A stretch of 25,636 nt of DNA from a virus. The notes under the pieces were generated by a model. That model saw nothing but the letters and a program-made list of their open reading frames with translations. It was not told the origin of the DNA and ran no database searches. Shown in pieces: positions 3,705 to 23,717 of this stretch; the first letter of the stretch is position 1, and each line of letters begins with the position of its first letter. The stretch covers positions 1-25,636 of the IMG/VR virus record IMGVR_UViG_3300025426_000112; one strand, 5' to 3'. The position numbers and the translations under genes are program-made.

Positions 3705-4877
3705 TTATGAATTCCCATAATTCGTTGAATAATCTGTTGTATCACTGGAAACGTTGTTTTGATTCATCAAATCATTGACTGGATTACTTGAAGGAACAAA
3801 AGTTCCATAGGCGTTGTAGTATCCAATTGGCTCACCTTTTGAGTTGTATTCAATTTGACCAGCTTGGCTTGTTCCAGTAGAGCTTCCTGAATAATCCATG
3901 GTTCCAACGGAACTTGCTCCACTTCCACCCATTGTGTCTCCAGTAGTTCCAGTATTTACCGTACCACTGCTTGACCCCCCGAGTAGATTGCTTAGGGATG
4001 TAGTGATTCCACTTAATGTTCCAGAGGGCAAAGAATTTAACAAAGAACCAGCCGCAAGCAATTGTGACGCTTGTGATGGGCCATAAACTGATGCAGGACC
4101 ATTGTAATTTGTAGTTGATGTCGTAGGTACTGTATACCCTTTTAATAGCCCTGCGGCGTTTGTGGCTTGCGTCAATGGTGCATTGATGATTGCTTGATTT
4201 TGAGCCTGCTGTTGAGCACCCAAAGTGGACTGTTCTGTCAATGCAGAGTTTGCCGCATTTTGGCCTGAAACAGCCAAGTTTCCGCCTACATTTGCCGCAT
4301 TGGTCAAGTTACCCTGTTCGGTCAATGCATTACTTACAGCAGTGTTGTATGCATTTGCATTATTGGTATTTTCTTGAGCCAACAAACCAGCTTGCAACCC
4401 ACCCAATGTTTGACCTGTAGCATTTAATAGTCTGCTTGATCCAGTGTTGCCAGTTTGAGCACCTAAAGCCTGAAGCGCAGGTAAAACAGTAGTATTGATG
4501 TTTTGTTGGTTTGCCTGTTCCAATGACTTATTTACTGCCGCTACATTTGGGTTGTAAAAAGCATTGATTTGAGATGGAGTAATACCACCAGCCGCAGTGC
4601 TCAAAGCGCCAGTAGCGGTACTCAATGGTGCTTGATATGTTTGAGCCGCTGTAGGAGCCGCCGCAAAAGCGCTTGTCTGGTTGCTTGACAAAGGAGCAAC
4701 AAGTTGATTGCTTGGAATAGCTAAGGCAGAATTTCCTGCGTTTGCAAGATTATTTAGATAAGATTGGTAATCAGAAAAGCCAGGAGCAAGTCCAGTTGTT
4801 GCCGTGGTCGTTGTGCTGACATTAGCTGGTGCTGTTCCCTGAAATAATGCTGATACAGGATTTGTATTCGTTGTCAT
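3705..4877 (-). CDS. Putative virion protein, Ala/Asn/Gln-rich (ejection-protein-like)
   Basis: A 390-residue low-charge protein dominated by Ala, Asn, Gln, Thr and Ser. The region around residues 105-165 has the pattern FYNPNVAAVNKSLEQ, then a run of Gln/Asn helix, then GAQTGNTGSSRLLNATGQ. This layout (aromatic-NP start, long helix, G-x-x-x-x-S-R) is one I know from structural proteins of uncultured aquatic podoviruses. The C-terminal third is a Gly/Ser/Thr-rich, probably disordered tail. Its first residues, MTTNTNP-SAL, nearly repeat those of the upstream neighbour (MTTNTDPSAL). It overlaps that gene by ATGA and has AAAGG about six bases before the start. It sits where P22 has gene 7. No enzymatic motif is present. 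It could equally be a minor tail protein. Confidence 0.55.
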   Translation of the reverse strand: MTTNTNPVSALFQGTAPANVSTTTTATTGLAPGFSDYQSYLNNLANAGNSALAIPSNQLVAPLSSNQTSAFAAAPTAAQTYQAPLSTATGALSTAAGGITPSQINAFYNPNVAAVNKSLEQANQQNINTTVLPALQALGAQTGNTGSSRLLNATGQTLGGLQAGLLAQENTNNANAYNTAVSNALTEQGNLTNAANVGGNLAVSGQNAANSALTEQSTLGAQQQAQNQAIINAPLTQATNAAGLLKGYTVPTTSTTNYNGPASVYGPSQASQLLAAGSLLNSLPSGTLSGITTSLSNLLGGSSSGTVNTGTTGDTMGGSGASSVGTMDYSGSSTGTSQAGQIEYNSKGEPIGYYNAYGTFVPSSNPVNDLMNQNNVSSDTTDYSTNYGNS

Positions 4878-7543
4878 TTTTTACCTTTCAGGTAATCTAG
4901 TGGTGATTTTAATGCTGGAGGAGGCAAATCATCAACTTTCGCAGATCTTGCTCTGGCTCGAATTTCTTCCATCATTTTATAGAGTTTGTCAGTTCCTGCT
5001 TTGGTAGAACCGTTACCCAGTGCAGAAACTACGTCAGCAGGGAAAACAAATTCACCATCAGCCAACCATGCAGGGATGTCATCAGACTGTCCATCACCTT
5101 TTCCTGCGACGTGAGCACCATGCTTAAAGCTTTGACGTCCACCAGGACCTGGAAGTGCTCCTATAGGGGCAACGTATCCACCTTTTTTGAACGCAGGCTC
5201 TGAGGCTTTTGCTGACTCATCAACAGACTGGCCTTCGACATTCTTTGTTGCCAATTGATCTGCAACCGACAAAGGCGGCTGGCCATAGTTATAGTAGTTC
5301 ACGGGTTGCTCCGATTTTGTTTGAAGTGGACTAGACTTTTCATTTGAAGCTTGACTTGCGTTGACAATATCTTCAAGTTTGGCAAGAGGGTTTTTAAATG
5401 GTTGATTAAGCAAATATGATCTGAGAACATTTTCCACTGCTCCAGGGTATGCCGCACCATATTGAGGTTGCTGTGTTGTTGGAACAGTAGTAGTTGCAGG
5501 AGTTGTTTTAGTGGTTTGAGTTGCGGAACCTCCGCCACCACCACCCCCGCCGCCTCCGCCGCCTCCGCCGCCGCCCCCACCAGGGGTAATAACGGTCGGT
5601 TTACCTCCAGGAGTTATGACAGTTCCTCCACCACCAGGCGTTATTACCGTTCCACCGCCAGTATTTGTCAGATCAACGTGAGCCACAGTTCCATCAGAAA
5701 GTTTCACGGATGGCAAAGTTGAAAGGTCACCCGTATACGTTCCAGAAGAACCAGTTACGGTAACAGGTTTTAAGTCAGAGCCAGCACCAAATTCTTCTGA
5801 ATTTGATGAAAGTAAATTTCCGTCAGCATCATATTTGTCTGTTGTTTGAAGGCCAGTTACTTTGTCATAATTAACAACTTCATAACTTCCATCAGAATTG
5901 ACTGTTGTTGTCTCAGTTGTATTTAAAACTGGATCGTTGACAGTTTTAGTTACATTTCCATCTTCATCTAAAAATAAACTTTGTTTGATTCCAGTGTTTG
6001 GATCAGTGCTGACGATTGGATTGTCGGCAGACAATTTGGATGCATCGATTTGGTTGACGGGCATATCAAACATACTCTTGCCCAAGCCAGTGTCTGTTGA
6101 TGATGTGTGCTGTCCAAATTGTTCTGAATCAGCTCCAGGCTTTGCCGATGATGCAACCGTGGCCGCATTGGTCACACTATTTGGATCAATTACTTCACTA
6201 CCACCAGTATTCGTGCCTGCATTGACTGTTGCAACACCAGTTGTGCCGCCAGTTGATGTGGAACCAGTTGAAGTATTAGAAGTCGAAGAAGTACTACCAA
6301 TTTGGCTTTTAACTTCTTGAGCACCAGCCGCAATTGCCGCATTGATTGCTGTTTGACTAGCAGTTTGACCAGTCAATGTACCACCAATAACTTTATTGAC
6401 GGCCGCTTGTTGAGCCGCACTTAAAGAAGAGTAGCCTGGAATTTGTGATCCAATAATTGGAACTGCGGCACTGATTCCTCCTCCAACTAATGCAGTTAAT
6501 GGATCAGCTTTACCCTGAGAAGATATTTCTGCACCCGTCAATGCACTAGTTGCACCTCCAAGAACTTTACTTGCAGTAGATCCTAAAGTATCAGAAGTTG
6601 CAGATGAAACAGCGTTTCCAACATATGGAGCGGCAGTGATTGCACCTTCACTTAAAGCGGCACTAGTCAAAGCCTTTCCCAAATTTCCTGTTTGAGCATA
6701 TGTGTTTGCTCCGCTCACCAAAGGAATGAATTCACCATTACCTGTGGCCGCCAAAGCTAAATCAACAACTGGAGCAATGAAATTTCCAAATCCACCAAGA
6801 ACGGAACCAGAAGAACCACGAGTCCATGAATAATTTGCGCTTATGTCTTTTGGAACAACTACATTACCGTTTGCATCAGTAGTAAATGCAACAGTATCAG
6901 TACCGCCTCGCGTTGGGTTTCCTGCTTGATAAGCATAAACTCCATTTCCCATGGGGGTAACATTTACACCGTTCAATGTGTAAATTGTTGCTCCAGTATC
7001 AGGATCAGTTGAAGTCTGAAGTTGTCCACCTTTAAGAATTGCAGAACCACCAACTTGCAACTGTGGGTTTTGAGAAACCAACTGCGATGTAGAAAGATAA
7101 TTTTCTCTAGCAGTTTTGCTATCAACACCAGTCACGCCAGCCGCTTGGTCAGTGCTAATACCAAATTGATTTACAGCTTCACCAATCAAAGCATTGTTTG
7201 CATTTGGATTGGCCGCATACCATTGACTAAATCCAGCCAGACCAGTTGGAGGTGTAGAACCTGTTGCTTGTATGTTTCCTTGTGGTGCTGTTGATCCAAC
7301 TACAGCGGGTGTAGATGTTGCCGAAGTAGTACCAGCATTTGCAACAGGAGGAGCAGTCAATGCAGAATACTGACTTCCAATAACATCACCAGTTGTACCG
7401 TAATGCTGTGCAAGTGCAGATGTAAGTCCCGATGTCAATCCACCAATAGACTGAACCGCCTGAGCAACTTGTGCAGGCGTAGCAGTAGGGTTAGCCGCAA
7501 AGTATTGGCTGACAAGTGCTGATGGATCGGTATTAGTTGTCAT
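4874..7543 (-). CDS. Large Gly/Ser/Thr-rich virion protein with poly-Gly tract and C-terminal DGEFV module
   Basis: An 889-residue protein with several visible parts. Residues 11-49 and 105-141 are two related helical repeats with the core Q-[YW]-[FY]-AANP. Residues 150-440 are Ala/Gly/Ser-rich, with a hydrophobic stretch around 250-370. About 485-625 holds beta-rich repeats of the DxxGN type (DEDGNVTK, YDADGNLLSS). Three copies of TVITPGG follow, then 18 consecutive Gly at 655-672. The C-terminal hundred residues contain FKKGGYV and GQSDDIPAWLADGEFV. The last motif (DxIPAxLxDGEFV, then LGxG) recurs at the ends of many tailed-phage virion proteins. No clear SD is seen; the start overlaps the previous stop as ATGA, so translation is probably coupled. 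It may be an internal or ejection protein or a tail component. Its motif content is virion-like, but its function is not established. Confidence 0.6.
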   Translation of the reverse strand: MTTNTDPSALVSQYFAANPTATPAQVAQAVQSIGGLTSGLTSALAQHYGTTGDVIGSQYSALTAPPVANAGTTSATSTPAVVGSTAPQGNIQATGSTPPTGLAGFSQWYAANPNANNALIGEAVNQFGISTDQAAGVTGVDSKTARENYLSTSQLVSQNPQLQVGGSAILKGGQLQTSTDPDTGATIYTLNGVNVTPMGNGVYAYQAGNPTRGGTDTVAFTTDANGNVVVPKDISANYSWTRGSSGSVLGGFGNFIAPVVDLALAATGNGEFIPLVSGANTYAQTGNLGKALTSAALSEGAITAAPYVGNAVSSATSDTLGSTASKVLGGATSALTGAEISSQGKADPLTALVGGGISAAVPIIGSQIPGYSSLSAAQQAAVNKVIGGTLTGQTASQTAINAAIAAGAQEVKSQIGSTSSTSNTSTGSTSTGGTTGVATVNAGTNTGGSEVIDPNSVTNAATVASSAKPGADSEQFGQHTSSTDTGLGKSMFDMPVNQIDASKLSADNPIVSTDPNTGIKQSLFLDEDGNVTKTVNDPVLNTTETTTVNSDGSYEVVNYDKVTGLQTTDKYDADGNLLSSNSEEFGAGSDLKPVTVTGSSGTYTGDLSTLPSVKLSDGTVAHVDLTNTGGGTVITPGGGGTVITPGGKPTVITPGGGGGGGGGGGGGGGGGGSATQTTKTTPATTTVPTTQQPQYGAAYPGAVENVLRSYLLNQPFKNPLAKLEDIVNASQASNEKSSPLQTKSEQPVNYYNYGQPPLSVADQLATKNVEGQSVDESAKASEPAFKKGGYVAPIGALPGPGGRQSFKHGAHVAGKGDGQSDDIPAWLADGEFVFPADVVSALGNGSTKAGTDKLYKMMEEIRARARSAKVDDLPPPALKSPLDYLKGKK
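5528..5581 (-). repeat. GGN microsatellite encoding 18 glycines
   Basis: Eighteen consecutive glycine codons (GGC, GGA, GGT, GGG mixed, mostly GGC/GGA) lie inside the 889-residue virion gene. The mixture of synonymous codons shows it is not a perfectly homogeneous repeat, but the GGC-GGC-GGA unit is repeated and could slip in multiples of three. It separates the repeat-rich body from the C-terminal module and probably acts as a flexible linker. Confidence 0.9.
5582..5650 (-). repeat. Three TVITPGG peptide repeats
   Basis: Three near-identical copies of T-V-I-T-P-G-G, separated by GG or KP, lie directly before the poly-Gly tract. The DNA copies differ at third codon positions, so the repeat is conserved at protein level rather than being a very recent DNA duplication. 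Confidence 0.85.
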
Positions 7544-7815
7544 TGCGGATTAGGTGAGAAGTTGTTTCTTAGGTCCAATGCCCACTTGTCCCAAGAGTCA
7601 TAACTGTATGGGTCAGGAACCTGTGAATTGTTAAAGAGGTCAATACCTTTTAATCCCACAGCCCAGCTTTGCCATATCGTTGTTGAATTTGGTATCTCCA
7701 ATTGATTCCCAGCAAACGCCTCACACATAAGTGAAGCCCAAGAATCAAAAGTATGGTATCTTGGATCATAGATAAGCGGTGTGACATTGATTTGATTGTA
7801 TGGAATTAAACTCAT
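7540..7815 (-). CDS. Small Trp-repeat protein, probable minor virion component
   Basis: A 91-residue protein with three imperfect repeats of an aromatic motif: FDSWASLMCEAFAGN, IWQSWAVGLKGIDLFNN and YDSWDKWALDLRNNF. Each has a W(x)nWA-like core followed by a helix ending in Asn. Small phage proteins with DW-x-x-WA repeats are familiar to me from tail-region genes of podoviruses, but I know no established function. GAGGGG about eight bases upstream of the ATG is a good ribosome site. The gene overlaps both neighbours by ATGA (7812-7815 and 7540-7543), placing it between the gp10-like hub and the large virion protein. In P22 this place holds the needle and a small assembly gene; that comparison is positional only. 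Confidence 0.6.
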   Translation of the reverse strand: MSLIPYNQINVTPLIYDPRYHTFDSWASLMCEAFAGNQLEIPNSTTIWQSWAVGLKGIDLFNNSQVPDPYSYDSWDKWALDLRNNFSPNPQ

Positions 7816-9836
7816 GAGTAGCCCCTCACGTCTCCAACGTCTGCATCCAACATGATTCGACCCAACTGGTAATTACCACCAGCCACGTTTGAGACAAACT
7901 TTAATCTCATCTCACGTCTTTGCTCTTTGAGGTCAATCTTGCCAGTATTTGCGTTGAATGTATAGGGGCCAGTGGTTTGGTCAGCAATCTGAGCATATGG
8001 ACGGCCAGTGATATACATATCCATAGTGCCAGAAAGGATGAAGTCAGGCTCAACTCGCTCAACTCTCCACCACTTATTGACTTCACTCATGGGCGCAATT
8101 TGAGAAGAATTACCCAAAACATAAGCCAAAGAGCTGGTCTCAAAGAAACTGTTGATTGCGAGTACTTGATCGTTCTTGATGGCGTCTGTTCCAATTTCAT
8201 GCTGGTACAAAGAAACAAAACTCATGGTGGATTGGACCACCAAAGCGAAGCTTGAACCAGAAGGTATTGCGGCACTCAGAGTATTACCGACAACATACCC
8301 AGTACCCCTGTTTTGGATGGTGACAGAAGTAATAGAACCGCCAGACACAACAATAGTGGCAGTTGCTCCAGTTCCAGAACCGCCAGTAAGAGCAATATAA
8401 GAGTAAGTTCCATTTGTATATCCTGAACCAGCGTTTCCGATGGTCACAACATTTACACCGCCAACAGCATTTGTACGCCAATCAGCATTGATTGGATAGT
8501 GGAAAACCTGTGAGAAGTACCCAGCAGAGCGGTTTGCACCATCGGCAAAACCTGCATCGTACCAAGTGCCTTCTCGCACGTTATAAATGATCGCGTTGTT
8601 GCACTCATTGCTACCGTTGGCAGGGTAGAACCACCAAATCTCACCGTAGCGTGGAACCTTTGTGGCATATACCTTTTGACGCTGTGCATAGTTCAGGTTG
8701 TCAAAGAAGTAGTTTTGATTCATGTTATTGGGGATCTCTTTGACCACACCGTTATAGAGCATGAATCGGTCAACACCACACCAATAGAAGATGCCGTCGT
8801 ACTCAATGACAGACTGAGACGACAAAATTGACGATTGAGACGTGATCGTGTCATAGCGCCAGTAGAAAGTCTGGGAGACCTGTGTCGAGCCAGAACCCGT
8901 TGTGACGGTTGTTGGGGTGTAGGACACACGAACCACACTATCCAAGCTCCAAAACAGGCCAGAAGGCGCGTTCACACCACCGCGGACGGGTAAGCCTTGG
9001 ACAATCTTTCCAGTGGCCACGTTGGTCGCATTGGCGGTCGCTGAGACCCAGTCATTGACGTTGTTTGCCCCAGAGTTTTGGATCAGGCCGTTGTTGCCAT
9101 AAACAAAAACATAAGGGAAGAGCACCACTACACCGCCAGAAACAGCGATGTTGTTGTCAAAAGTGGCTGAAACGCTTGAATTTGTGGCTGTTGCAGGCAG
9201 ACTCAACGTCAAAGTGGTTCCAACAATCGAAGAAACCGTGGTTCCTGATGCTATACCAGTGCCTGTGATGGTCTGGCCAGCACCAATGATGAATTGATTG
9301 GTCAGTGGAGTGACCACGGTGGCCATGGTGCTACCGTTTGTGATGCTGATATTCTGGGTAAAAACGCCTACTTTTGACGCGCTGGACCCAGTGATGTTGC
9401 CTGCCAAAACTGGCGAATTGACGGGATTGTTGATATCCGCCAAATTCTGGCCAGGGTGCGCCAACAACAAATTATTTCCCGAACCCGTGGCATCAAAGAA
9501 GTTGTCAAACTGCCAGAGGTTATTGGGGGAGGCTGTGAAGTTGGATAGTGCCCAATCCACAATACCAGCTCCGATACCATCGTTGTTGATGGGAATCGAT
9601 TGCAGACCGTCAGAATAGCCGCTGAAGACGTCTGTATAACCGCTTTGAGGGCTGACATAAATGCCTCTTGAAGGACCTGCCAAAGCGCCTGTAATCTCAC
9701 GGTATCCGCCTATCTTTCTGGGGCGCCCACGCTGAAACCTTACCCACTGCCCATCATGGTAAAACAGTGAGTCAAAAAGCGTCCCATCCCGCTGAATTCC
9801 AGGCTTGGTTGCTATTTGATAGATTTGCTTGGTCAT
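7812..9836 (-). CDS. P22 gp10-like tail hub / packaged-DNA stabilisation protein
   Basis: A 674-residue protein. The N-terminus (IATKPGIQRDGTLFDS, then GQWVRFQRGRPRKIGGYREI around residues 10-46) and the centre (VIEYDGIFYWCGVDRFMLYNG, then WWFYPANGS and NAIIYNVREGTWYDAG, about 340-435) match the layout of P22 gp10-type proteins. These plug the DNA exit channel below the adaptor and bind the fibres or needle. The end (RREMRLKFVSNVAGGNYQLG) is also typical of the type. Two beta insertions stand out. Residues about 155-230 have ITGTGIASGTTVSSI and 462-519 have GSGYTNGTY, then GGSGTGATATI. Both are recurring Ig-like or surface modules in aquatic phage virion proteins. It overlaps the upstream stop as TAATG with a weak GGTGG site. 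The assignment is by recognition of pattern, not by alignment. Confidence 0.75.
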   Translation of the reverse strand: MTKQIYQIATKPGIQRDGTLFDSLFYHDGQWVRFQRGRPRKIGGYREITGALAGPSRGIYVSPQSGYTDVFSGYSDGLQSIPINNDGIGAGIVDWALSNFTASPNNLWQFDNFFDATGSGNNLLLAHPGQNLADINNPVNSPVLAGNITGSSASKVGVFTQNISITNGSTMATVVTPLTNQFIIGAGQTITGTGIASGTTVSSIVGTTLTLSLPATATNSSVSATFDNNIAVSGGVVVLFPYVFVYGNNGLIQNSGANNVNDWVSATANATNVATGKIVQGLPVRGGVNAPSGLFWSLDSVVRVSYTPTTVTTGSGSTQVSQTFYWRYDTITSQSSILSSQSVIEYDGIFYWCGVDRFMLYNGVVKEIPNNMNQNYFFDNLNYAQRQKVYATKVPRYGEIWWFYPANGSNECNNAIIYNVREGTWYDAGFADGANRSAGYFSQVFHYPINADWRTNAVGGVNVVTIGNAGSGYTNGTYSYIALTGGSGTGATATIVVSGGSITSVTIQNRGTGYVVGNTLSAAIPSGSSFALVVQSTMSFVSLYQHEIGTDAIKNDQVLAINSFFETSSLAYVLGNSSQIAPMSEVNKWWRVERVEPDFILSGTMDMYITGRPYAQIADQTTGPYTFNANTGKIDLKEQRREMRLKFVSNVAGGNYQLGRIMLDADVGDVRGYS

Positions 9837-11074
9837 TAGAACGTACCACCAGATATGCCGCCAGTGAAGTTTCCAGAACCCAATACATTGAGTCCAGAGC
9901 TTGTGAAATCGGCCACATCAGTACCCAAAACAGTGATGCTGAAGTCTCCAGTACCCTTGCGATAGATACCTGTTGAGGTCTCTGAGGCAAAGTACAAAGA
10001 AGGAGAACCAGCGTTACCGTTCACCAAAGCAAAAGAAATCGAGCCAGCTTGGGTGGTATTCGCGTTGTAGAAGTTTTTTCCATCGCAGATGAGGGTGGCT
10101 TGGCCAGAGGCTGGAACAGTGGCTGTAGCGCCCCCAGAAACGCCTGTGGTGACCGTGAATGAATACCCGCTTGCGTTGGTCTGATTGCTGATCACATACA
10201 GATTTGCAACAGGCGGGAAAGTCACCGTCACGTTAGAGGTCAGTGTGCCTGAGTACTCTTGAATGGTGTTCGAGGCTTGGCTGGCCGTTAGGGTATAAGA
10301 ACCACCCGTCACAGTCAAAGTCAGGACCGAGTACACAAAAGTTGAGCTGGTACCGTATCCAACAGTTATGAAGCCTGTTCCAGTGCAGATGATGAAGGCA
10401 GAATTCCCTGGCTGGAATGTCTTACTCGTCGCGCCGTCAATCGTGTCGCTACCTGAGCAGTTCACGGTCAAAGTGCCAGTGCCGTTGTTTTTGACCAGAA
10501 CAAACCAGCTCGAGCCAAGGGTGCCAGCCGCTGTCAAAGTGGCCGTGGTAGTACCGCCGCTCCACACGAATGCTGTGGCTTGATCTGACGCCAAGAATGT
10601 ATAGGCGGCACTCAAAGCGCTGATTGTGTACGCCTGATTCAGTGTGGCTGAAAGCGCCTCTAAACCGTAACCAGCAAGAGCTGATGCGGCTCCAGCGTAG
10701 TTGCCTGAACCAAAAGTTAACATCCCCCATGTTCCGTTTTGGGTGGTGTTGTTGGTCACATAGATATATTCGGCTTGACCAGCGGCCAAAGCAATGATCG
10801 TAGTTCCACCGTATCCAACAACAGTAAATTGGGTGCTACCGACGTTGCGGATTAAAGCATCTTGGCCAACAGAAACTTGGGTGGCGTCTGGCATATAAAC
10901 CAAACCACCAGAGCCTGTGAAGCTGATCTCCATGACCCTTGCGGCTGGGTTGCCAGTGTTGCCGTTAACAGGCCACTGAAGGGTAAGGTTTGAGGTTAAC
11001 CCAGTATAAGACGCATAGCTAACGTCCGTTGGCTGGATGGTATTACCTGAGAAGGGTGAGGTATAAGTTGTCAT
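9836..11074 (-). CDS. Beta-rich tail or fibre-like structural protein
   Basis: A 412-residue Thr/Ser/Gly-rich protein with very few charges. The N-terminal part (MTTYTSPFSGNTIQP, then LQWPVNGNTGNP and MPDATQVSVGQDALIRNVGS, to about residue 95) is a module I recognise from structural genes next to gp10-like hubs in aquatic podoviruses. The middle has two copies of a beta module with cores such as SDQATAFVWSGGT and ASNTIQEYSGTLTSNVT, each followed by LYVISN-like strands. The C-terminus (FASETSTGIYRKGTGDFSIT, then VADFTSSGLNVLGSG) is like the shaft ends of phage fibres. ATGA overlap upstream, with GGTGGA as ribosome site. It is probably an appendage or sheath-like decoration bound to the hub. 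The exact location in the particle is unknown. Confidence 0.6.
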   Translation of the reverse strand: MTTYTSPFSGNTIQPTDVSYASYTGLTSNLTLQWPVNGNTGNPAARVMEISFTGSGGLVYMPDATQVSVGQDALIRNVGSTQFTVVGYGGTTIIALAAGQAEYIYVTNNTTQNGTWGMLTFGSGNYAGAASALAGYGLEALSATLNQAYTISALSAAYTFLASDQATAFVWSGGTTTATLTAAGTLGSSWFVLVKNNGTGTLTVNCSGSDTIDGATSKTFQPGNSAFIICTGTGFITVGYGTSSTFVYSVLTLTVTGGSYTLTASQASNTIQEYSGTLTSNVTVTFPPVANLYVISNQTNASGYSFTVTTGVSGGATATVPASGQATLICDGKNFYNANTTQAGSISFALVNGNAGSPSLYFASETSTGIYRKGTGDFSITVLGTDVADFTSSGLNVLGSGNFTGGISGGTF

Positions 11075-11706
11075 GCATCCACCGCAATGGCTTGACGATC
11101 AGCGATTCTCAACTTGTCCTCATTGGTGAGGGTTGACATGATCAGATCGTACTGTTGTTGGAAAATCGGTCCTCTGTCGTCATTCTTCAAGAATGGCATA
11201 GCTTGTAAGAGCGAGCCAAACAATAAAGCTTGTGGCGCGTATTGGGTGAACCAATTGGTTTGGTTGTTGCTGTCAAGAGGTTGGACTCTTTGATAGTACA
11301 AGGTCTCAAAAGCATAGTTTTGATCAGGCGTTGGTGCTACAAGCCAATGATCATAGTCATAGTCAGCATAGTAAAGAGGAGTTCCTGTGCTGGTTTGAAC
11401 AGGCCAATACTCCTTCAAATACTCGTACTTTCTAAGCAAAACGGGCTGATTGCCCGTTGCTGTTGCTAAGTTAAAGGATACTGTTTTGTGCCATCTGGCT
11501 GGCTTGGGGATGATTGCACTACCAGCCACCATGGTTGATTCTTGGACCGTCAAGTTGCCCAAAAACTTAATTTGAGAGGCAATGACTTGTTCCGCCAACA
11601 TGATGAAGAGCGGAATATTCTCAATTGTCGTTGTATCAGTACGCTCTAAATAGGTCTGAATGTTCAAGACAAGAGAGTCATACGTCATAACACTAGCGTC
11701 TGCCAT
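11071..11706 (-). CDS. SU10-type head-tail adaptor protein
   Basis: The 211-residue product starts MADASVMTYDSLV. The family signature is a short N-terminal helix (MTYDSLVLNIQTYLERTD) and a helix ending the first lobe (IPLFIMLAEQVIASQI). A beta part follows with IIPKPARWHKTVSF, LYYADYDYDHWLVAPTP and YYQRVQPLD, then YAPQALLFGSLLQAMPFLK. I recognise this as the podovirus adaptor family exemplified by phage SU10; the protein ring sits beneath the portal. I chose ATG 11706 over ATG 11718 and TTG 11721 because GGGAG lies five bases before 11706. It is the first gene after the lysis cassette and directly follows the candidate promoter. A second, larger adaptor-fold protein is encoded at 22.6-23.7 kb. 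Confidence 0.7.
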   Translation of the reverse strand: MADASVMTYDSLVLNIQTYLERTDTTTIENIPLFIMLAEQVIASQIKFLGNLTVQESTMVAGSAIIPKPARWHKTVSFNLATATGNQPVLLRKYEYLKEYWPVQTSTGTPLYYADYDYDHWLVAPTPDQNYAFETLYYQRVQPLDSNNQTNWFTQYAPQALLFGSLLQAMPFLKNDDRGPIFQQQYDLIMSTLTNEDKLRIADRQAIAVDA

Positions 11707-11711
11707 GCCAA

Positions 11712-11716
11712 CTCCC
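11712..11716 (-). promoter_or_regulatory. Shine-Dalgarno GGGAG deciding the adaptor start
   Basis: GGGAG on the minus strand lies five bases before ATG 11706. The two in-frame starts further upstream (ATG 11718, TTG 11721) lack a comparable site at the right distance, so 11706 is preferred. Confidence 0.65.
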
Positions 11717-11735
11717 ATCAAAAAATATTTTGTTC

Positions 11736-11764
11736 ATTTTAGTCCCTCAGACCCTTCTAATCAA
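11736..11764 (-). promoter_or_regulatory. Sigma70-like promoter for the tail block
   Basis: On the minus strand TTGATT (11764-11759) and TAAAAT (11741-11736) are separated by exactly 17 bases. They match TTGACA in 4 of 6 and TATAAT in 5 of 6 positions. The -35 box overlaps the endolysin stop codon. Transcription would start near 11729, giving a leader of about 20 bases before the adaptor ATG at 11706. This is one of the few true gaps between genes, which supports it, but a match this good can occur by chance in AT-rich sequence. Confidence 0.45.
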
Positions 11765-12360
11765 GCATTCAGTATGCGTTCGCATTTGTGCATGACGGCC
11801 TCACGCTCTTTTGCTCCAAATTCACCACCATTGATGACTTTAGTTAATGCCAAGTAGTTTTTGGCTTGGGCCAGTTGATTGCATCCATGCGTTTTCCAAA
11901 ACCAGCCCCCAATTGAGGCCGCATACTTGGGTGTACGGGCCAAATCTGGGTTGTGGACCAAATCAACGCCCAAGGCTTGGCCTGCGTGCCAGAAATTGTC
12001 ATGGCCAGTCAATTGACAGATTGCCGATCCCCTGAACCGCCATCCGTCCCCAGACTTCTCGTCTCGGTTGCCCATCCTATTGGAATAGATGTGGTTAGCT
12101 ATCTTCTCTGGCTGGTGAGCATAGACTAAAGCCTCCTGCATGGTTGGAAAGCGCCTTGGCCACAACTTCATCAGCGTTTCAGGCTTATAGTTCAGGTTCT
12201 CGCTCAGGTCCTTGAAGTGGTTGGATTCATAGGAAAACTGGCCAATAAAACAAGCCTGCTCCTCCGCAGTATCGATTCCCCAGCGGTCAAAGGTCTCATT
12301 GAGAGGGTCCAGCCACTGTGGACCAATGTCCATTTGGTGGAGTTGTTCAGCAGTGATCAT
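11761..12360 (-). CDS. GH19-type endolysin (chitinase-like muramidase)
   Basis: A 199-residue single-domain lysin that should cut the glycan strands of host peptidoglycan. GH19 features are visible. FIGQFSYESNHF carries the likely catalytic Glu45, and SENLNY carries Glu54, nine residues later, the spacing I recall for the phage SPN1S lysin pair. YSNRMGNRDEKSGDGWRFRG and QLTGHDNF (92-123) match the conserved GDG-x-RG-QLTG core. The usual RGRGLIQLTG is RGSAICQLTG here. There is no signal peptide, SAR segment or separate wall-binding domain, so export should need a holin. ATGA overlap with the spanin gene, with a strong GAGGGG six bases upstream. Its place right after Rz/Rz1 fits a lysis cassette. 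Confidence 0.85.
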   Translation of the reverse strand: MITAEQLHQMDIGPQWLDPLNETFDRWGIDTAEEQACFIGQFSYESNHFKDLSENLNYKPETLMKLWPRRFPTMQEALVYAHQPEKIANHIYSNRMGNRDEKSGDGWRFRGSAICQLTGHDNFWHAGQALGVDLVHNPDLARTPKYAASIGGWFWKTHGCNQLAQAKNYLALTKVINGGEFGAKEREAVMHKCERILNA

Positions 12361-12938
12361 TTGACCCCCTCATTAACCGTCTGCATCACTTCGTTGTATT
12401 GACTGATGCAGGCGTTGAGTTTGACGATTGCTTTGTCTCCGTCTGAGGCGATGGCGACAATATCTTTAATAGCCTGTCGGTCAAATTCGGCTCCATCGGC
12501 TTGATTTCCATTGGGGGCATCTGCACTGGCTTGTACACCACAGGAGGAGGGGAGGCGCAACTCGCCAGCATCAATGCGAGCGTTAATACTAGCTTGCTTC
12601 GTCTTAATGTCATTTTTGGCCTGCTTCAGTTGGCTGGTGGCTCTTGCGAGCTTTTGTCCGAGTTCGACTTCTTTTGCGCGAGCTTCGCCATTAAGTCGTT
12701 CAATCTCTGCTTTATCTTCGTCAACCCGTCTTTGATAACCGTGATGATCTGAGACATAGTAACCTCCTGCGATAACCAACAACAAACCCACTGCCTTCAT
12801 GATGAGGGCGTGGGGCTTTAACATAGGGAGAAACCCTACAAGATAACTCAGTACATATGAAATTGCTCCTGCGAGCGTTGCAATGATTGCAATCCAGTAA
12901 AACAGGTCGTCAAAGAACCATGACAGCCAACTAAGCAT
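12357..12938 (-). CDS. Rz: Rz-like inner-membrane spanin
   Basis: The 193-residue product starts MLSWLSWFF. It has two hydrophobic segments, about 13-38 and 46-63, then a long charged helix (RVDEDKAEIERLNGEARAKE onward, to about 120). The C-terminal region contains GELRLP and SSC, with further helix to the end. The helix, the LRLP-x-x-C element and the nested lipoprotein gene in another frame are those of an i-spanin, which pairs with the outer-membrane spanin to fuse the envelope membranes. Rz proteins usually have one membrane segment; this one appears to have two. GTG 12947 is an alternative start, but ATG 12938 has GAGAG about eight bases upstream. It overlaps the previous stop by eight bases. 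Confidence 0.75.
   Translation of the reverse strand: MLSWLSWFFDDLFYWIAIIATLAGAISYVLSYLVGFLPMLKPHALIMKAVGLLLVIAGGYYVSDHHGYQRRVDEDKAEIERLNGEARAKEVELGQKLARATSQLKQAKNDIKTKQASINARIDAGELRLPSSCGVQASADAPNGNQADGAEFDRQAIKDIVAIASDGDKAIVKLNACISQYNEVMQTVNEGVK
12386..12613 (-). CDS. Rz1: Rz1-like outer-membrane spanin lipoprotein nested in Rz
   Basis: A 75-residue protein read in a different frame, wholly inside the Rz gene. Residues 1-18 are a signal peptide (basic MTLRRSK, then a hydrophobic core). LASC at 16-19 is a lipobox, so the mature 56- or 57-residue lipoprotein would begin at Cys19. The mature part is Pro-rich (ASPPPVVYKP, QMPPMEIKPMEP), as in Rz1 proteins. It would sit in the outer membrane and bind the periplasmic end of the Rz protein. 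A weak AGCAGG lies upstream of the ATG. Complete nesting of Rz1 in Rz is the lambda arrangement. The combination of lipobox, Pro content and location makes a chance open frame unlikely. Confidence 0.8.
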   Translation of the reverse strand: MTLRRSKLVLTLALMLASCASPPPVVYKPVQMPPMEIKPMEPNLTDRLLKILSPSPQTETKQSSNSTPASVNTTK

Positions 12939-13404
12939 TTCGCACACTCTCTCTTGCGTGAGCCGTTCTCAAACGCTCTTCTTCGCTTTCAAGAGTCGGT
13001 GGTCCAGCGGGTGGAGGAGGGGGCGTCCATGAGGGATTTGGGGCCGTCATGATGATTGGTGCAGGCGGTGGAGGTGGAGGTGCCACATAAGCATCTTTGT
13101 TAGCCTTAGCCGCATTCATCATGTTGGTGGCTTCGTTGGTCAGGCCCTTGGTCAGAATGCCCCCAATACCGCCCACAATGAGCAAAACGATGTCATTCAA
13201 CATCTTGGTATAGGCTTGGTCAATCGGTGCCATGGCCTTGATCGGTTGAGACACAAAGGTCACCGAATACAGCAGAGCCATCACAATAAACGCCAGAATC
13301 AGGGTCACAACGATGATCACAAAGGATCGGACCCTAATCTCTATCTCATCGGCATTGAGGCGTTCCTTGGGGCTGTTGAGGAATGCTAGTAGGAGTTCCT
13401 TCAA
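12931..13404 (-). CDS. Two-segment membrane protein, candidate holin, TTG start
   Basis: A 157-residue protein with two membrane segments (about 28-50 and 70-86, IVLLIVGGIGGIL) joined by a short loop, IKAMAPIDQAYTKM. The C-terminal tail of about 70 residues holds two Pro runs (APPPPPPAP, TPPPPPAGPP) and a charged end. Position two genes before the endolysin, and the need of that lysin for a holin, make this the best holin candidate, although the Pro-rich tail is unusual. The start is TTG, with GGAG seven A residues upstream. The next in-frame ATG falls inside the first membrane segment. It overlaps the upstream lipoprotein gene by 59 bases. A structural or host-takeover membrane role is also possible. 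Confidence 0.65.
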   Translation of the reverse strand: MKELLLAFLNSPKERLNADEIEIRVRSFVIIVVTLILAFIVMALLYSVTFVSQPIKAMAPIDQAYTKMLNDIVLLIVGGIGGILTKGLTNEATNMMNAAKANKDAYVAPPPPPPAPIIMTAPNPSWTPPPPPAGPPTLESEEERLRTAHARESVRNA

Positions 13405-17888: not shown

Positions 17889-18409
17889 GGTGTTCCGTAG
17901 GCTGTTACGTTTGCAATGGTCGTCATGTTACCACTGCTGTCAATACTAAATAGCGTTGTGCCGCCGTATTGGATGATAAGTTTACCGCCAGATTGTTGAA
18001 CTGTGAAGTTAGCAGTTGTCAGGCTTGTAACTGAACCTCCAAGAGTAATGTTACCCGTTGAAGTGACTGTACCCGTCAAAGTCAATCCATTGGCTGAACC
18101 TGTACCATTGACTTGAGTAACTCCGCTTGTTCCTGTGGCCGTCAATACTCCACCAGTAAAACTCAATCCTGTGCTGACAGTAACATTACTAAATCCGCCA
18201 GAACCGTTTCCATAAAGAATCGATGATCCAGTAGTTGCCGAGGTTGCGTTGCTGGCAATTTTAGCTATAGACGTTCCATTGTTATAAAACAAAATACCAT
18301 CAGCAATATTGATGGCCAATTCACCTACTTGCAAATTACCCGTTGTTGGCACATGGCCAGCAGTCGTCGAGTAGTAATGCTGTATTGGCGTAAAACCTGA
18401 CTGAGACAT
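17885..18409 (-). CDS. Short tail-fibre protein without S74 domain
   Basis: A 174-residue protein. Its start (FTPIQHYYSTTAGHVPTTGN, then QVGELAINIADGILFY) is a module at the N-terminus of many phage fibres. The remainder is a Gly/Thr/Ser beta shaft with repeats such as TGGVLTATGTSGVTQVNGTG. It ends in DSSGNMTTIANVTAYGTP. In the neighbouring long fibre the same NVTAY directly precedes the S74 motif, so this fibre stops where an S74 chaperone would begin. GGAG eight bases upstream supports the start, and the start overlaps the long fibre's stop by one base. It may be a shaft fragment or a partner fibre that trimerises with help from another protein. Confidence 0.7.
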   Translation of the reverse strand: MSQSGFTPIQHYYSTTAGHVPTTGNLQVGELAINIADGILFYNNGTSIAKIASNATSATTGSSILYGNGSGGFSNVTVSTGLSFTGGVLTATGTSGVTQVNGTGSANGLTLTGTVTSTGNITLGGSVTSLTTANFTVQQSGGKLIIQYGGTTLFSIDSSGNMTTIANVTAYGTP

Positions 18410-21400
18410 TATTTATTCTCCAATGCTTCGATGCGTTTCGCCAATTGATCTATGGCTCCAAAAGACAAGGTGCCGAGTTTCTCATAGTCAACAGCCAAAG
18501 AACCGTCTGGTCTTGTTCTGACAGCTCTTGAGAATACTCTCTCAACCATTTGAGCAATCACTCCAAAGTCGGATTTTCTTACAAAATAACCGTCTTCGCC
18601 ACCGTGTTCTCTAATATATTCATCTTTCCAATCGTACAGTTTTGAACCGATTGCACGAACAATCGACAAAGGATCAGGCACATCTAAGATGTTTTCTTTA
18701 AATTTGATGTCAGAAGAGTAGTAAGCCGTGACGTTGTTGGTCGCTCTGATTTCACCTGTAGTTCCAGAGGCGGCAGTTCCAACTCCAAATGATCCAAATT
18801 GGACGCTCGATGCGGTTCCAATAGACTGTGGAGTGGACAAGGTAACTGATCCAGTGGATGCCGAGACTGAGATTTGATTTGATGTCCCCGTTAAAGCGGT
18901 AACACCACCATTTGTCACGGTGACGCCACCAGTTGAACCGCTTACACTTATACCAGTTCCAGCCGACAGAGATGTGACGCCAGAGTTTGTAATTGTCACA
19001 GCTCCAGTAGCACCGCTCACTGAAATACCTGTACCAGCCACATTGGATGTCACGCCAGTGTTATTGATGGTCAGCGAACCTGCACCAACAGTTGTGCTGA
19101 TACCAGTTCCTGAGCTGACGCTGGCCACTGTATAGTTGGTTCCATTGCCAATCAACAATTGACCATTTGTAGGCGTTGTGGTCACTCCAGTACCACCGTT
19201 GGCCACACTCAAAGTACCAGCCAAGGTAACTGCGCCAGAAGTAGCTGTAGATGGTGTCAAACCAGTAGTACCAGCGCTAAATGTAGAAACACCGCTTGAG
19301 CTTGCTGACTGCCATGAGGCTGTTGTACCGTTGGAGGTCAATACATATCCGCTGGTACCAATTGCAAGCCTTGTGGCGCTGTTTGTGCCGTTTCCAATGA
19401 TCAAATCACCCGTCGATGTGATGGGAGACAAAGCATTGAATGCAGTTGATGCGGTTGTTTGGCCAGTACCACCATTGGCAATTGGCAAAGTGCCAGTCAC
19501 TCCAGTTGTCAATGAGACGTTGGTGATTGTGTTGTTTGAACCATTGATGGTTTTATTGGTCAGCGTTTCGCTACCAGCCAATGTGGCCAAAGTACCTGTT
19601 GTAGGCAATGTCAGCGATGTATTGGCGGTTGCAGTAAATGTCTGTGTATAAGTGCCTGCGTGGGTGACACTTCCTGCCATGGTCAGCGTGCTGGTACCAT
19701 TATTGACGCCAGTACCACCATTTGCACTGGGCAAAACTCCTGTGGCCTGATTAACAGGCACATTCGTAGCATTGGTCAACACAATTGCGCTTGGAGTTCC
19801 CAAAGCAGGAGTCACCAATGTTGGGCTGGTGGCCAAAACAATGCCTCCAGTACCCGTTACGGCTTGTCCAAGCGCCGTCTGAACGCCTGTTCCGAATGCT
19901 GTCAGGCCAGTACCACCAGCAGTAATTGGAAGCGTTCCAGTGGTCAATGCTGACGTTGATGTAGCATAAAGCGCACCGCCAGAAGTAAAGCTGGACAATC
20001 CAGTTCCACCGTATGTGGTGCCAACAATGCCAGAAGTGATCTGAGTGCCTGCAATTGCAATTGTCACGTTGGAGGCCGCAGTCAATTGACCTTGAGCATT
20101 TACTGTGAATGATCCAACAGCAGACGCTGTGCCGTAGCTATTTGCAGAAACAGCAGTATTTGAAATGCTGAATTGGGTACCAGTTAAGGTCAGTCCTGTG
20201 CCTGCGGAATAGGCTCCTGGTCCAGCAATCTGGGCAAAAACCAAAGGAGTTGTACCAATTGTGATTGGTGCATCAGTTGTTTGGACCCATTGAGTGGACG
20301 CATTAACGGTACCGCTAATGATGAACATGGTGTCGCCTGGGGCGACTTCGTTTGTTCCAGTACCAGTTTGGTCATAGTCAGTTGCGCGAGTCAACACCCA
20401 GCCAACAGAGCCTGAACCAACGCTTGTAACCGTGTAAATACCGTTATATTGGCCAGAAGTCTCATTTTTAACCAAAATCCTTTGTCCAACAGTTGGATTT
20501 GCACCATCAATTGCTAATGTAGCAAATGGGCTGGTCTTGGTAATTGTTGCGCCAACTCCTGAACTACCGTTGTTGTAGGTCACAGTTCCCAAGTCAGCGG
20601 TCGTCGCATATTCACAAGCCGCATGGTAGTTCACGTTAGAAACTGCGGCGTCAACGTACTGCTTTGTGGCCAGTTGGAGAGCTGTAGTTGGGTCTTGTGT
20701 CACTGCAACTGATGTCAATCCAGCCACTGTTGATGCTGTTGCACCAAGTGATACAGCAGTTGTACCAAGTGTGATTGAGCTGTTGGTCAACGAACTGTTG
20801 CCAATATTGGTCAAAGTATTGGTTGAACCGCTGATTGACTTGTTTGTCAATGTATCGGTTGTTGCTCTACCAACCAAAGTGTCAGTGCTTGTAGGAAGAG
20901 TCAGTGTTCCGCCATTTGTAATGGTAGATATAACTGGCGATGTCAGTGTCTTATTGGACAGCGTTTGTGTGCCAGTCAAAGTGACCACAGAGCTGTCAAT
21001 TGCAATCGTCACAGGAGTTGAGCCGTTATAGCTTGATCCTGTCAACCCTGTACCAATTGTCAATGCATTTGTTGCTGTTGCAGTAACTGTTGCGGATGCA
21101 CCCAAACTCACAACGGTGCCATTGATGGTCACTGAGCTATTAGTCAATCCTGCATTCGGAATGGTTGAAACAGCGGTAAATGCGCTTGAACCGTTTCCAA
21201 CCAAATATCCAGTAAGAGTTGTGGCTCCAGTTCCACCATTGCCAACATTCAAAGTACCGCTCAGAACCACGTTTCCACTTGTTGGAGTTGTGGGGCTGAG
21301 TCCAGTTGTTCCTCCGCTAAATGAAGAGACGCCACCAGAAACTGAGAATGTTCTCCAAGTACCGCTTGAATAACCTTCAAAAGCAGAATTGTCCGTATTG

Positions 21401-22290
21401 AAACGGAACATACCATTTGATGCTACGCCTTGCTGTGCAGTGGTTCCAGATGGCACAGTAACCGCTTGGGTTCCAGGCAATACTGGATTATTAGCAATTG
21501 AAAGAACTGGCGTCGTTGTTGAGTTAACAACATTGATTTGGCCCGATGTACCAGCTACAGAAGTAACTGTACCGTCACCAACACCCAAATTGGCCCAAGA
21601 GCTGTTTTGGTAGCCCTCAAAGCGTGATGTAGTGGTGTTATAGCGAATGACACCATTCGTGCTGATTCTGTTACCAGTTGCACCTACGGGCACTTGTACG
21701 CCGCCAGTGCCTGGCAAAACTGGATTGTTGGCAATTGCAATTGTTGGACTACCGCTTGATGCATCAGCACTTGAAACTGAAATTTGATTTGATGTTCCAG
21801 CCAATGAAGTCTGGCTGACAGTGGTTCCATTGATAGTAACCAAACCAACACCAGAAGTTGAGGCAAAGTTGGCCAACACACCTGAAATTGAAATTGTTGG
21901 GTTACCAGCAACACCGTTTCCATTTGTGATTGCAATACCATTTCCAGATACTGCAATGGTCCTGTTCACCAATGTTGAGCCGCTGGATTTGACTTGGAAA
22001 CCGTTACCAGAGACTTCGAGCTGGCCACTAATTCCATTCAATCCAAGGACCAAGTTTTGGCCTGCACCGCCGTCAGTAATACCAATACCAACTGAAGATG
22101 CAAGGTAGCGACTGTTGCCAAGAGCAGGAGTCGATGTTGCTGTTAAAAATGAATATCCAGACAGGTTTGTTGCACTTGCAATCTGACCTGTTGTTGTCTG
22201 TACAGTCACTCCGTTTTGGACGACTGGGACCGCCTCTGTGCCAGTCAGTGCAGAGGCTGTTGGGAGTTGGGTTATCTGTACGTTTGCCAT
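18409..22290 (-). CDS. Long tail fibre with C-terminal S74 intramolecular chaperone
   Basis: A 1293-residue protein and the largest gene here. The N-terminus (VQITQLPTASALTGTEAVPV) is a common virion-binding opening of phage fibres. A very long shaft follows, made of Thr/Ser/Gly beta repeats with recurring cores LSVANGGTG, TLTNKTI and LVTPALGTP. One domain near 560-700 carries VGQRILVKNETSGQYNGIYT, a module shared by many fibres. Three 23-25-residue repeats (GTGISVSGATG type) lie just before the end. Residues 1192-1293 are an S74 peptidase or chaperone domain: SSDIKFKENI (catalytic Ser1193, Lys1198), FGVIAQMVE and a final LE-rich helix. Family knowledge says the domain trimerises the fibre and then cleaves itself off before this Ser. 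The trimer would reach the host surface. Confidence 0.85.
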   Translation of the reverse strand: MANVQITQLPTASALTGTEAVPVVQNGVTVQTTTGQIASATNLSGYSFLTATSTPALGNSRYLASSVGIGITDGGAGQNLVLGLNGISGQLEVSGNGFQVKSSGSTLVNRTIAVSGNGIAITNGNGVAGNPTISISGVLANFASTSGVGLVTINGTTVSQTSLAGTSNQISVSSADASSGSPTIAIANNPVLPGTGGVQVPVGATGNRISTNGVIRYNTTTSRFEGYQNSSWANLGVGDGTVTSVAGTSGQINVVNSTTTPVLSIANNPVLPGTQAVTVPSGTTAQQGVASNGMFRFNTDNSAFEGYSSGTWRTFSVSGGVSSFSGGTTGLSPTTPTSGNVVLSGTLNVGNGGTGATTLTGYLVGNGSSAFTAVSTIPNAGLTNSSVTINGTVVSLGASATVTATATNALTIGTGLTGSSYNGSTPVTIAIDSSVVTLTGTQTLSNKTLTSPVISTITNGGTLTLPTSTDTLVGRATTDTLTNKSISGSTNTLTNIGNSSLTNSSITLGTTAVSLGATASTVAGLTSVAVTQDPTTALQLATKQYVDAAVSNVNYHAACEYATTADLGTVTYNNGSSGVGATITKTSPFATLAIDGANPTVGQRILVKNETSGQYNGIYTVTSVGSGSVGWVLTRATDYDQTGTGTNEVAPGDTMFIISGTVNASTQWVQTTDAPITIGTTPLVFAQIAGPGAYSAGTGLTLTGTQFSISNTAVSANSYGTASAVGSFTVNAQGQLTAASNVTIAIAGTQITSGIVGTTYGGTGLSSFTSGGALYATSTSALTTGTLPITAGGTGLTAFGTGVQTALGQAVTGTGGIVLATSPTLVTPALGTPSAIVLTNATNVPVNQATGVLPSANGGTGVNNGTSTLTMAGSVTHAGTYTQTFTATANTSLTLPTTGTLATLAGSETLTNKTINGSNNTITNVSLTTGVTGTLPIANGGTGQTTASTAFNALSPITSTGDLIIGNGTNSATRLAIGTSGYVLTSNGTTASWQSASSSGVSTFSAGTTGLTPSTATSGAVTLAGTLSVANGGTGVTTTPTNGQLLIGNGTNYTVASVSSGTGISTTVGAGSLTINNTGVTSNVAGTGISVSGATGAVTITNSGVTSLSAGTGISVSGSTGGVTVTNGGVTALTGTSNQISVSASTGSVTLSTPQSIGTASSVQFGSFGVGTAASGTTGEIRATNNVTAYYSSDIKFKENILDVPDPLSIVRAIGSKLYDWKDEYIREHGGEDGYFVRKSDFGVIAQMVERVFSRAVRTRPDGSLAVDYEKLGTLSFGAIDQLAKRIEALENK

Positions 22291-22643: not shown

Positions 22644-23717
22644 TTACCTCGTATAGACTGAAATATTTGGTGCAAAGTACTCAGGCGACTTGTCACGCTC
22701 TTCTTGCTCGACGTCGTAGAGGAATTTGTCAGCCATTTTCTCAAGATATGCTATCCGAGTGGGGTCAACCGCAGGCAATTCCAAGCTCATACGGTGAGCC
22801 AGCATGAAAATCACAGCTTCATACCATCTTTGAGGTATTGCCAACTGTCCAGAAAGTGATCCAACGTCCTCAATGTAGGCTGAGTACCATACTGTTGCCT
22901 GTACAAATGAAGTATTTGGGACTGGCCACAGTGTAATTGTGGGCTGATTGATGGTTCTTTGAAAATAATACTGGAATGGCTGGTTCGCAGTAAAGTTTTT
23001 GTTGGGTAAGTTGGTGTAATCATCTCTATTTAGGCGTGACATCTCAATTTCACGACTATTATTTCCTAAATACAGCTCTCTCAGCGCCAAAGTTGTGCCA
23101 TTTGTGGCCACCATGCGGTAGTAGCTGACGTTTGCCCCTGGGTCAATGTCTTGCCACACCCATTGGCCATCAGTTACAGCCACGTTTGTGCCAGTGTAAA
23201 GTGTTTGCCAGTTGGTACCATCAAGAGACGCCTGCAATTGGTAGTTCCAAGTGGCCGATCCAAAGTTGGCAATGTAGGGCATAAACCCGATTGAACCAAT
23301 GTACTGAGGATTGTTGGTCCCGTAGATCACTTCAAAGTTGCCATTTGGAGAATTCTGCTGGCAATAGGTGTTGGTGTTGTTGTCATAAAGGTTAGAAACG
23401 ACTCCACCTGCACTTGATGTGTAATTGCCTGAAGGCTGGGCCATTTGGCGATACAAGACGTTTAATGCGTCATTGGCACCCACAGGTAGCAAATACTCGT
23501 ATTGATTTGCTACAAGGCCGATTACAGTCTTATAGAGGGCAAAGTATTGAATGCCGCGGTTCATCATGTTGGACAAGAGAAAATACAAGTTTTCTCTGGC
23601 GGCAACTTGCTGTTCTGAAGTGGTTTCTTCAGCTAATTTGCCGCAACGACGAACCGCATGATCGATGACGGTTTGAACGCTGACAATAGTCTGACTTGTC
23701 GTTCCTGAAAATGCCAT
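22644..23717 (-). CDS. Head-tail adaptor protein with inserted discoidin-like domain
   Basis: A 357-residue protein with a core split in two. Residues 1-95 (VIDHAVRRCGKLAEETTSEQ, then LYFLLSNMMNRGI) and 220-357 (REIEMSRLNRDDYTNLPNK, QPTITLWPVPN, IPQRWYEAVIFMLAHRMSLE) match the podovirus adaptor or gp4/gp11-like fold. The ring of this protein joins the portal to the tail hub. Residues about 96-219 are an inserted beta domain resembling F5/8 type C (discoidin) modules: NLYDNNTNTY, YQLQASLDGTNWQTLY, then WQDIDP and YYRMVATNG, ending LRELYLGN. Such modules often bind sugars. AAGGG six bases before the ATG is a good site. Homology to the SU10-type protein at 11 kb is only at fold level, if at all. 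Confidence 0.75.
   Translation of the reverse strand: MAFSGTTSQTIVSVQTVIDHAVRRCGKLAEETTSEQQVAARENLYFLLSNMMNRGIQYFALYKTVIGLVANQYEYLLPVGANDALNVLYRQMAQPSGNYTSSAGGVVSNLYDNNTNTYCQQNSPNGNFEVIYGTNNPQYIGSIGFMPYIANFGSATWNYQLQASLDGTNWQTLYTGTNVAVTDGQWVWQDIDPGANVSYYRMVATNGTTLALRELYLGNNSREIEMSRLNRDDYTNLPNKNFTANQPFQYYFQRTINQPTITLWPVPNTSFVQATVWYSAYIEDVGSLSGQLAIPQRWYEAVIFMLAHRMSLELPAVDPTRIAYLEKMADKFLYDVEQEERDKSPEYFAPNISVYTR

Follow-up and report, generated by a model that had tools for sequence, protein, structure and literature searches.

The window, by which we mean the whole 25,636-nucleotide stretch of virus record IMGVR_UViG_3300025426_000112 that was analysed, encodes a 357-residue adaptor protein (protein A) whose core is split by an inserted domain, together with a second protein of adaptor fold (protein B), a putative tail fibre, a small CxxC-type protein and a possible nozzle-type protein (Table 1). 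A CxxC-type gene follows the adaptor gene at 193 of 215 loci with the long type of insert and at 72 of 76 with the shorter type of Caulobacter phage RW (RW-type), at 1 of 197 insert-free loci and at neither of the two loci with another type of F5/8C insert. By eye, several insert-free phages have a positional counterpart of the CxxC protein, some with SDRSG in place of CDRCG.

Table 1. Features of the window discussed in the text.
Feature	Position	Strand	Basis or remark
Possible nozzle-type protein, 674 aa (role inferred)	7812..9836	(-)	PHROG 3287, virion structural protein
Second adaptor-fold protein B, 216 aa, without insert	11071..11721	(-)	PF24175, 77.6 bits, cut-off 27
Putative tail fibre, 1293 aa, C-terminal Peptidase_S74 chaperone	18409..22290	(-)	PF13884, 34.6 bits, cut-off 22
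Small CxxC-type protein, 115 aa	22294..22641	(-)	Adjoins the adaptor gene
Adaptor protein A, 357 aa, with inserted discoidin domain	22644..23717	(-)	Homologues annotated 'tail adaptor'
Adaptor core, C-terminal part (residues 221-357)	22647..23057	(-)	PHROG 12985; PF24175 below cut-off; alignments
F5/8 type C (discoidin, CBM32-like) insert (residues 93-220)	23058..23441	(-)	PF00754, AF2, Foldseek/VIA; absent from insert-free relatives
Adaptor core, N-terminal part (residues 1-92)	23442..23717	(-)	AF2 model and alignment to insert-free relatives

The initial annotation held that two adaptor halves are parted here by an F5/8 type C-like segment at 23061-23432 (residues 96-219), and the open reading frame, its frame and the split are as it described, with the domain slightly wider at about residues 93-220 (Pfam match 101-212; structural alignments about 91-221). 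PF00754 scores 30.4 bits on residues 101-212 of the whole protein (E 4.9e-7) and 34.3 bits on the insert by itself (E 2.9e-8), against a cut-off of 28.2. Scores among relatives are uneven, from 35.8 bits in L058 to values under the cut-off in L079 (26.8) and in phage MW202545 (17.2), and the homologue of phage RW has no PF00754 match in Pfam, where it reaches PF22633 below threshold (20.1 bits, cut-off 27.8). In alignment A2, made of the window protein and 105 of 165 listed references (seven odd ORFs dropped and L336 left out), 83 of the 106 members bear an insert of at least 90 residues; at E <=0.01, PF00754 matches 48 of the 106, and 21 of 23 inserts. Furthermore, a profile built from 19 RW-type inserts, with the window excluded, recognizes the insert of the window at 41.6 bits. 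A chance match is ruled out by the best score of 12.1 bits among the 1958 shuffles scored out of 2000 made, and a recent or assembly-made fusion by the presence of the insert in 330 ORFs.

Five AF2 models of protein A, computed from the 106-row alignment, have mean pLDDT values of 82.0-84.0 (best model 84.0, pTM 0.72), and in the best of them 12 of the 13 ten-residue blocks of residues 91-220 lie at pLDDT 92-96 and one at 90. The N-terminal core part is modelled with helices first, followed by a strand (81-93) that runs into the insert. The segment itself is predicted as a separate beta-sandwich, contrary to the outcome that the initial annotation had named as its refutation; that it could be part of the adaptor core is ruled out by this model and by the discoidin matches found with VIA-align. 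Its best solved matches are CBM32, fucolectin and galactose-oxidase-type discoidin domains: Foldseek ranks CBM32 modules first among solved structures (4a41, E 2e-7), and VIA-align superposes the insert on the CBM32 chain 4a42_B with Z 16.9 (rmsd 1.8 over 119 residues), on the multi-domain mannosidase 7nsn_A with Z 17.1, on 7d29 with 16.8 and on the fucolectin 3cqo_A with 16.4. A profile search with the insert returned weak matches among unrelated proteins, the best to YeCBM32 (E 0.004). From sequence matches and predicted structure, the segment is a complete discoidin (F5/8 type C, CBM32-like) domain.

The two parts of the core are recognized through relatives that lack the domain. PHROG 12985 matches residues 222-312 of protein A, and PF24175 (SU10_adaptor) covers residues 200-336 at 20.2 bits, below its cut-off of 27, probably because the insert splits the core. 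Of six insert-free homologues from named records, three exceed this cut-off (52.4, 49.6 and 37.4 bits), Pag-Yong1 falls just under it (25.7 bits) and HTVC023P and MW202785 are unmatched; PF24175 matches 87 of the 106 members of A2 at E <=0.01. In the phage records, a homologue with an insert is annotated as 'tail adaptor' in MW202545 (55% identity), and four Caulobacter phages including RW carry a homologue annotated as hypothetical (41% identity) with a shorter insert. Homologues without insert occur in the Roseobacter phages CRP-901/902 ('tail adaptor') and two environmental genomes, and also in HTVC023P, DSL-LC04 ('Pam1 adaptor protein') and Pag-Yong1 ('portal-adaptor protein'). The adaptors of CRP-901/902, HTVC023P, DSL-LC04 and Pag-Yong1 (PHROG 12985) are 215-231 aa long, lack the insert that distinguishes the window protein and align on both sides of it, with a chain that is continuous across the insertion point. 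In structural comparisons, the split core aligns with the 216-residue chain 9k09_d of the cyanophage A4 portal-tail complex over 355 columns that span the split (Foldseek; TM of the window model 0.60 by target and 0.39 by query, rmsd 12.1). In BFVD, the core finds a counterpart in a 231-residue 'Tail tubular protein A' (TM by target 0.72) and the whole model in at least one uncharacterized phage protein, of 350 residues (UniProt A0A6J5RSL2; TM 0.85/0.87), so that the architecture is already in databases without a name. A PDB profile search with the mainly insert-free alignment A3 yielded only likely chance matches and no adaptor, and phmmer with the adaptors of two relatives found no solved adaptor.

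The fold of the family was also read from a model of the insert-free relative L238 (pLDDT 76.5, pTM 0.55), for which all 18 Foldseek matches at E <=0.001 are chains of phage portal-tail or virion structures. Among solved adaptors it aligns best with that of A4 (9k09_d, Z 14.1 over 194 residues), followed by VP1 (8zkk_B, 13.2), GP4 (8jov_2, 13.1 over 202), SU10 (7z47_A, 10.8 over 185) and T7 (7box_N, 10.4 over 159), and the alignments with P22 (8u10_m) and Sf6 cover only 112 and 107 residues. The insert-free relatives, PHROG 12985 and this predicted fold thus place both halves of protein A in one adaptor family. The insert falls in the loop after strand 80-90 of L238, within a stretch (58-154) that, taken alone, has further matches in beta domains of the tailspike TSP4 and of baseplate proteins. 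Excerpts of the SU10 paper attribute a domain that docks the long tail fibres to the adaptors of SU10, T7 and KP32 and describe P22 and Sf6 as without it; the shorter P22 and Sf6 alignments fit this absence, and we therefore read stretch 58-154 as the fibre dock. On the model, the hairpin holding the insert appears to belong to the fibre-dock region, and the loop that carries it probably lies on the outer rim. Judged from sequence and models, protein A is a T7/SU10-type adaptor subunit in which one hairpin has been opened to hold a discoidin beta-sandwich, and homology with SU10, T7 and P22 suggests twelve copies per virion.

Either of the two proteins, A or B, may be the one that binds the portal. 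Protein B shows weak sequence matches to the solved adaptors 8zkk_B (E 0.014) and 9nwi_A (E 0.039), and counterparts matching PF24175 are found in MW202545 (90.5 bits), RW (95.3) and Pag-Yong1 (71.9, annotated 'lysozyme'); CRP-902 gp41, tried as a further counterpart, has no PF24175 match. We favour protein A for the ring at the level of the fibres, since its gene precedes the fibre gene and, in MW202545, follows the capsid gene, an order that SU10 shares. The possible nozzle-type protein has the same place and size as a 673-aa 'phage stabilization protein' of MW202545, and its residues ~448-551 form a module that matches tail-fibre and baseplate-wedge PHROGs and is perhaps another inserted surface domain. 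Elsewhere in the window, a 196-aa protein (12357-12947) has a lipoprotein-like 75-aa ORF (12386-12613) nested in another frame, an arrangement that looks like an embedded spanin pair; it adjoins a GH19 endolysin at 11761-12360. An 889-aa protein (4874-7543) contains a long uninterrupted glycine run.

Hints as to the shape of the virion and the hosts come from the relatives. Depositors labelled MW202545 as Siphoviridae, MW202675 as Myoviridae and MW202785 as Podoviridae, and in PMC11053796 the RW cluster is tabulated as having a tape measure protein; given the mixed labels and this table entry, a T7-like short tail is an assumption. The cultured insert-bearing members that were found infect Caulobacter vibrioides, and ten loci come from genome collections, nine of them in MAGs (Burkholderiales, Betaproteobacteria, Rhodocyclaceae, Acidobacteriaceae, Aestuariivirga, Akkermansiaceae and others), record names that we treat as hints to hosts. 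Among the insert-free relatives, one (L485:7713-8387) lies in a 487-kb contig of Phenylobacterium deserti and is probably part of a prophage.

The insert profile matches 330 of 569 adaptor ORFs found at 568 loci, a proportion that is not a natural frequency, as at most the best 80 loci were taken per query and some queries were patterned inside the insert; the window itself is counted among the 568 loci (L081), as are overlapping pieces of a single contig. Of the 239 unmatched ORFs, 238 have an insert-free query as their nearest; for the remaining one it is MW202545, as would fit the downstream fragment of the broken gene L335. In all, 81 of the 239 have at least 290 aa, mostly of the HTVC027P type. 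L335 itself carries an in-frame TAG (2405-2407) in an otherwise open insert-bearing adaptor gene, which may reflect an error, decay or stop-codon recoding. In a tree computed from the core only, for which thinning at 80% left 64 of 122 rows, a single branch with support 99/95 separates the insert-bearing proteins from the others, implying one change, and the long-type clade has support 96/99; the position of L482, the deepest row with an insert, is loose (78/28), and several insert-free rows are long-branched. Loss of the insert within the insert-bearing group was seen neither among the 569 ORFs at 568 loci nor in the 64-row tree. The members examined from the wider adaptor family lack the domain, which makes a single gain the simplest reading, and the core tree accordingly supports a domain acquired once and then inherited with the adaptor.

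The same hairpin holds an insert of another kind in the adaptor of Pelagibacter phage HTVC027P (gp64, L472:6001-6936), which belongs to the same family. There, about 80 residues match parts of tail-fibre and virion protein PHROGs (E 4.6e-6 and weaker) and give no F5/8C match in Pfam, and the best 80 relatives of gp64 match along its full length or to the end of their contig. A hairpin in the likely fibre-dock region has thus been filled by two phage groups with different modules.

Within the insert, mean entropy is 1.09 in the loops placed distally by the predicted strand order, 1.17 in the near loops and 1.22 in the strands, and the core has 0.77-0.84; the distal loops, as assigned, are thus not hypervariable at the level of sequence. 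Galactose-binding CBM32s have a ligand-binding Arg or His in the distal loop equivalent to residues 148-153. In this loop, again assigned from predicted strand order and with other binding modes known to exist, His, Arg or Lys occurs in 0 of 64 rows. The RW-type insert falls short of the long type by about 30 residues, and positions 112, 117, 121, 125, 126 and 147-151 are gaps in all 19 RW-type rows, which thus partly lack two loops. The net charge of the insert is negative throughout (-14 to -3 in 64 long-type and -9 to -1 in 19 RW-type rows). On the other hand, loop 102-126 has nearly fixed residues (D112 and T117 in 63 of 64 rows, Q121 in 64, N125 in 61, and also G126), and the polar ones could, on their conservation, be part of a site that binds a ligand or metal.

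Sequence divergence is faster in the insert than in the core. The 64 long-type rows have identities of 0.715 (core) and 0.574 (insert), and between long and RW types the corresponding values are 0.440 and 0.290; among 12 close relatives pN is 0.111 in the core and 0.174 in the insert. In those same relatives pS of the insert is 0.732, a value near saturation that makes the ratio rough, and the excess of pS over pN points to purifying selection. The distal loops, as assigned, have the highest pN of the insert's three classes among the 12 closest relatives (0.197, with pS near saturation) and the lowest among 24 more distant ones (0.198).

The long gene downstream of the adaptor varies among relatives, and in the close relatives L013 and L096 it has another N-terminal type. 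We compared insert identity between pairs of loci with the same and with different fibre types in six bins of rising core identity, the pairs not being independent. Fibre types were defined by matches to two motifs (125 and 18 loci), and 63 of 206 long-type loci with neither motif were left out. The values for same and different types were 0.552/0.550, 0.596/0.559 and 0.609/0.602 in the three low bins and 0.693/0.729, 0.740/0.751 (core 0.85-0.90) and 0.842/0.841 in the three upper ones. By this sequence comparison, the divergence of the insert does not clearly follow the neighbouring fibre type. The window itself has genes of both fibre types adjoining, and a difference in type may therefore reflect the loss of a gene and not a swap.

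We propose that the twelve adaptors would form a ring under the portal from whose outer rim twelve discoidin domains protrude, each on two antiparallel strands. These domains would act as a collar through protein-protein contacts, bracing the junction of capsid vertex, adaptor ring and fibre base during packaging, tail assembly and ejection, the discoidin fold being reused as a rigid spacer and not as a reader of sugars. We give this twelve-copy structural collar at the tail vertex about an even chance and prefer it to a host-range lectin; a structural role is favoured by the absence of distal hypervariability, the lack of His, Arg and Lys at 148-153, the gaps of the RW type and the lack of a clear dependence on fibre type. 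Among the functions that the initial annotation had offered, stabilisation of the vertex would fit best and sugar binding is the least supported. Several observations weigh against the collar: the fold is that of sugar-binding CBM32s, and a domain rich in Asn and Tyr may bind in a non-classical way; the insert changes faster than the core in both identity and pN; loop 102-126 has nearly fixed polar residues; pN is highest in the distal loops among the 12 closest relatives; and in one of the six bins inserts are less alike when fibre types differ (0.559 vs 0.596). On balance, we lean towards the insert being a conserved part of the particle and not a traded host-range module.

Second in likelihood, though we hold it to be unlikely, is a reading in which the domain is instead a working carbohydrate-binding module. 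Through it the collar would attach weakly, multivalently and reversibly to the LPS, capsule or exopolysaccharide of the host in advance of fibre engagement, much as evolved Dit and neck passage proteins use their CBMs. The sugar-binding nature of the top fold matches (CBM32 and lectin domains) and the nearly fixed polar residues of loop 102-126 are in its favour, as are excerpts reporting that lactococcal phages have tail and neck proteins whose CBMs bind host cells (PMC6669499) and that evolved Dits aid adsorption to EPS-bearing hosts (PMC10688798). It is opposed by the 0 of 64 rows with His, Arg or Lys at 148-153, the gaps in two loops in 19 of 19 RW-type rows and the negative charge of every row, and by a pattern in which hypervariable loops were not found, no loss of the insert was seen in the group and no clear link to fibre type emerged. 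A broader version, in which a single discoidin/CBM32 capture by the dock hairpin produced a twelvefold, non-fibre adhesion or sensing collar at the tail vertex of this phage lineage and the hairpin is a general socket for different surface modules, discoidin in this case and a fibre-like one in HTVC027P and its relatives, strikes us as rather doubtful. We find it quite improbable that each domain, or pair of domains, is the socket of one fibre and extends the dock loop of SU10 and T7. The insert does lie within the middle region that SU10 and T7 adaptors match and that is seemingly absent from P22, and the genes run from adaptor to small protein to fibre; however, L013 and L096 have another N-terminal type of fibre with no consistent change in the insert, and a tail fibre gene likewise lies downstream in CRP-902, whose adaptor has no insert. 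Very improbable, finally, is a domain captured by chance that does little and is kept because it is harmless: a site that tolerates two different kinds of insert would suit such a passenger, but the purifying selection (pN 0.174 vs pS 0.732, in the 12 close relatives with pS near saturation) and the lack of any observed loss of the insert in the group speak against it. The structural collar thus remains our preferred reading.

The adaptor, usually taken for a plain joint, is evidently able to carry a surface domain, and the phages in which it does so form a large group, most of them uncultured. Adaptors of this kind may escape annotation: in the window protein the split core does not reach the Pfam cut-off, and in RW the gene is annotated as hypothetical. 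With Caulobacter phage RW in culture, the role of the domain is open to direct experiment.

Compared with known systems, the window family has in common with SU10 gp11, T7 gp11 and P22 gp4 (PF24175; PF11650, P22_Tail-4) a helix-bundle core, and with the SU10 and T7 adaptors an extra middle region, as reflected in the fold matches of L238 (Z 10-14). In the gene order available for SU10 (gp9-gp11-gp12), the adaptor gene stands between those of capsid and fibre, and MW202545 is arranged likewise. Unlike the window protein, the adaptors of SU10, T7 and P22 are described without a discoidin insert in the excerpts at hand, and a literature search, judged by titles and the openings of abstracts among the matches listed, gave no adaptor with a discoidin domain. 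Such domains are known in phages, as a gene of the jumbo phages Joad/RisingSun bears the label discoidin domain in the part of the source consulted. With CBM32 and other F5/8 type C domains (PF00754) the insert has the fold and a weak sequence match in common, and it differs from CBM32 in a loop 148-153 devoid of His, Arg and Lys and in being part of an adaptor. A further parallel is found in the CBMs of evolved Dits and neck passage structures of lactococcal siphophages, likewise sugar-module domains on ring or collar proteins (excerpts of PMC10688798 and PMC6669499). Those CBMs sit on other rings, at the distal tail and the siphophage neck, and not on an adaptor as in the window; furthermore, as far as these excerpts go, their carriage varies with the phage and tracks host EPS, whereas the domain of the window lineage is kept throughout the lineage sampled.
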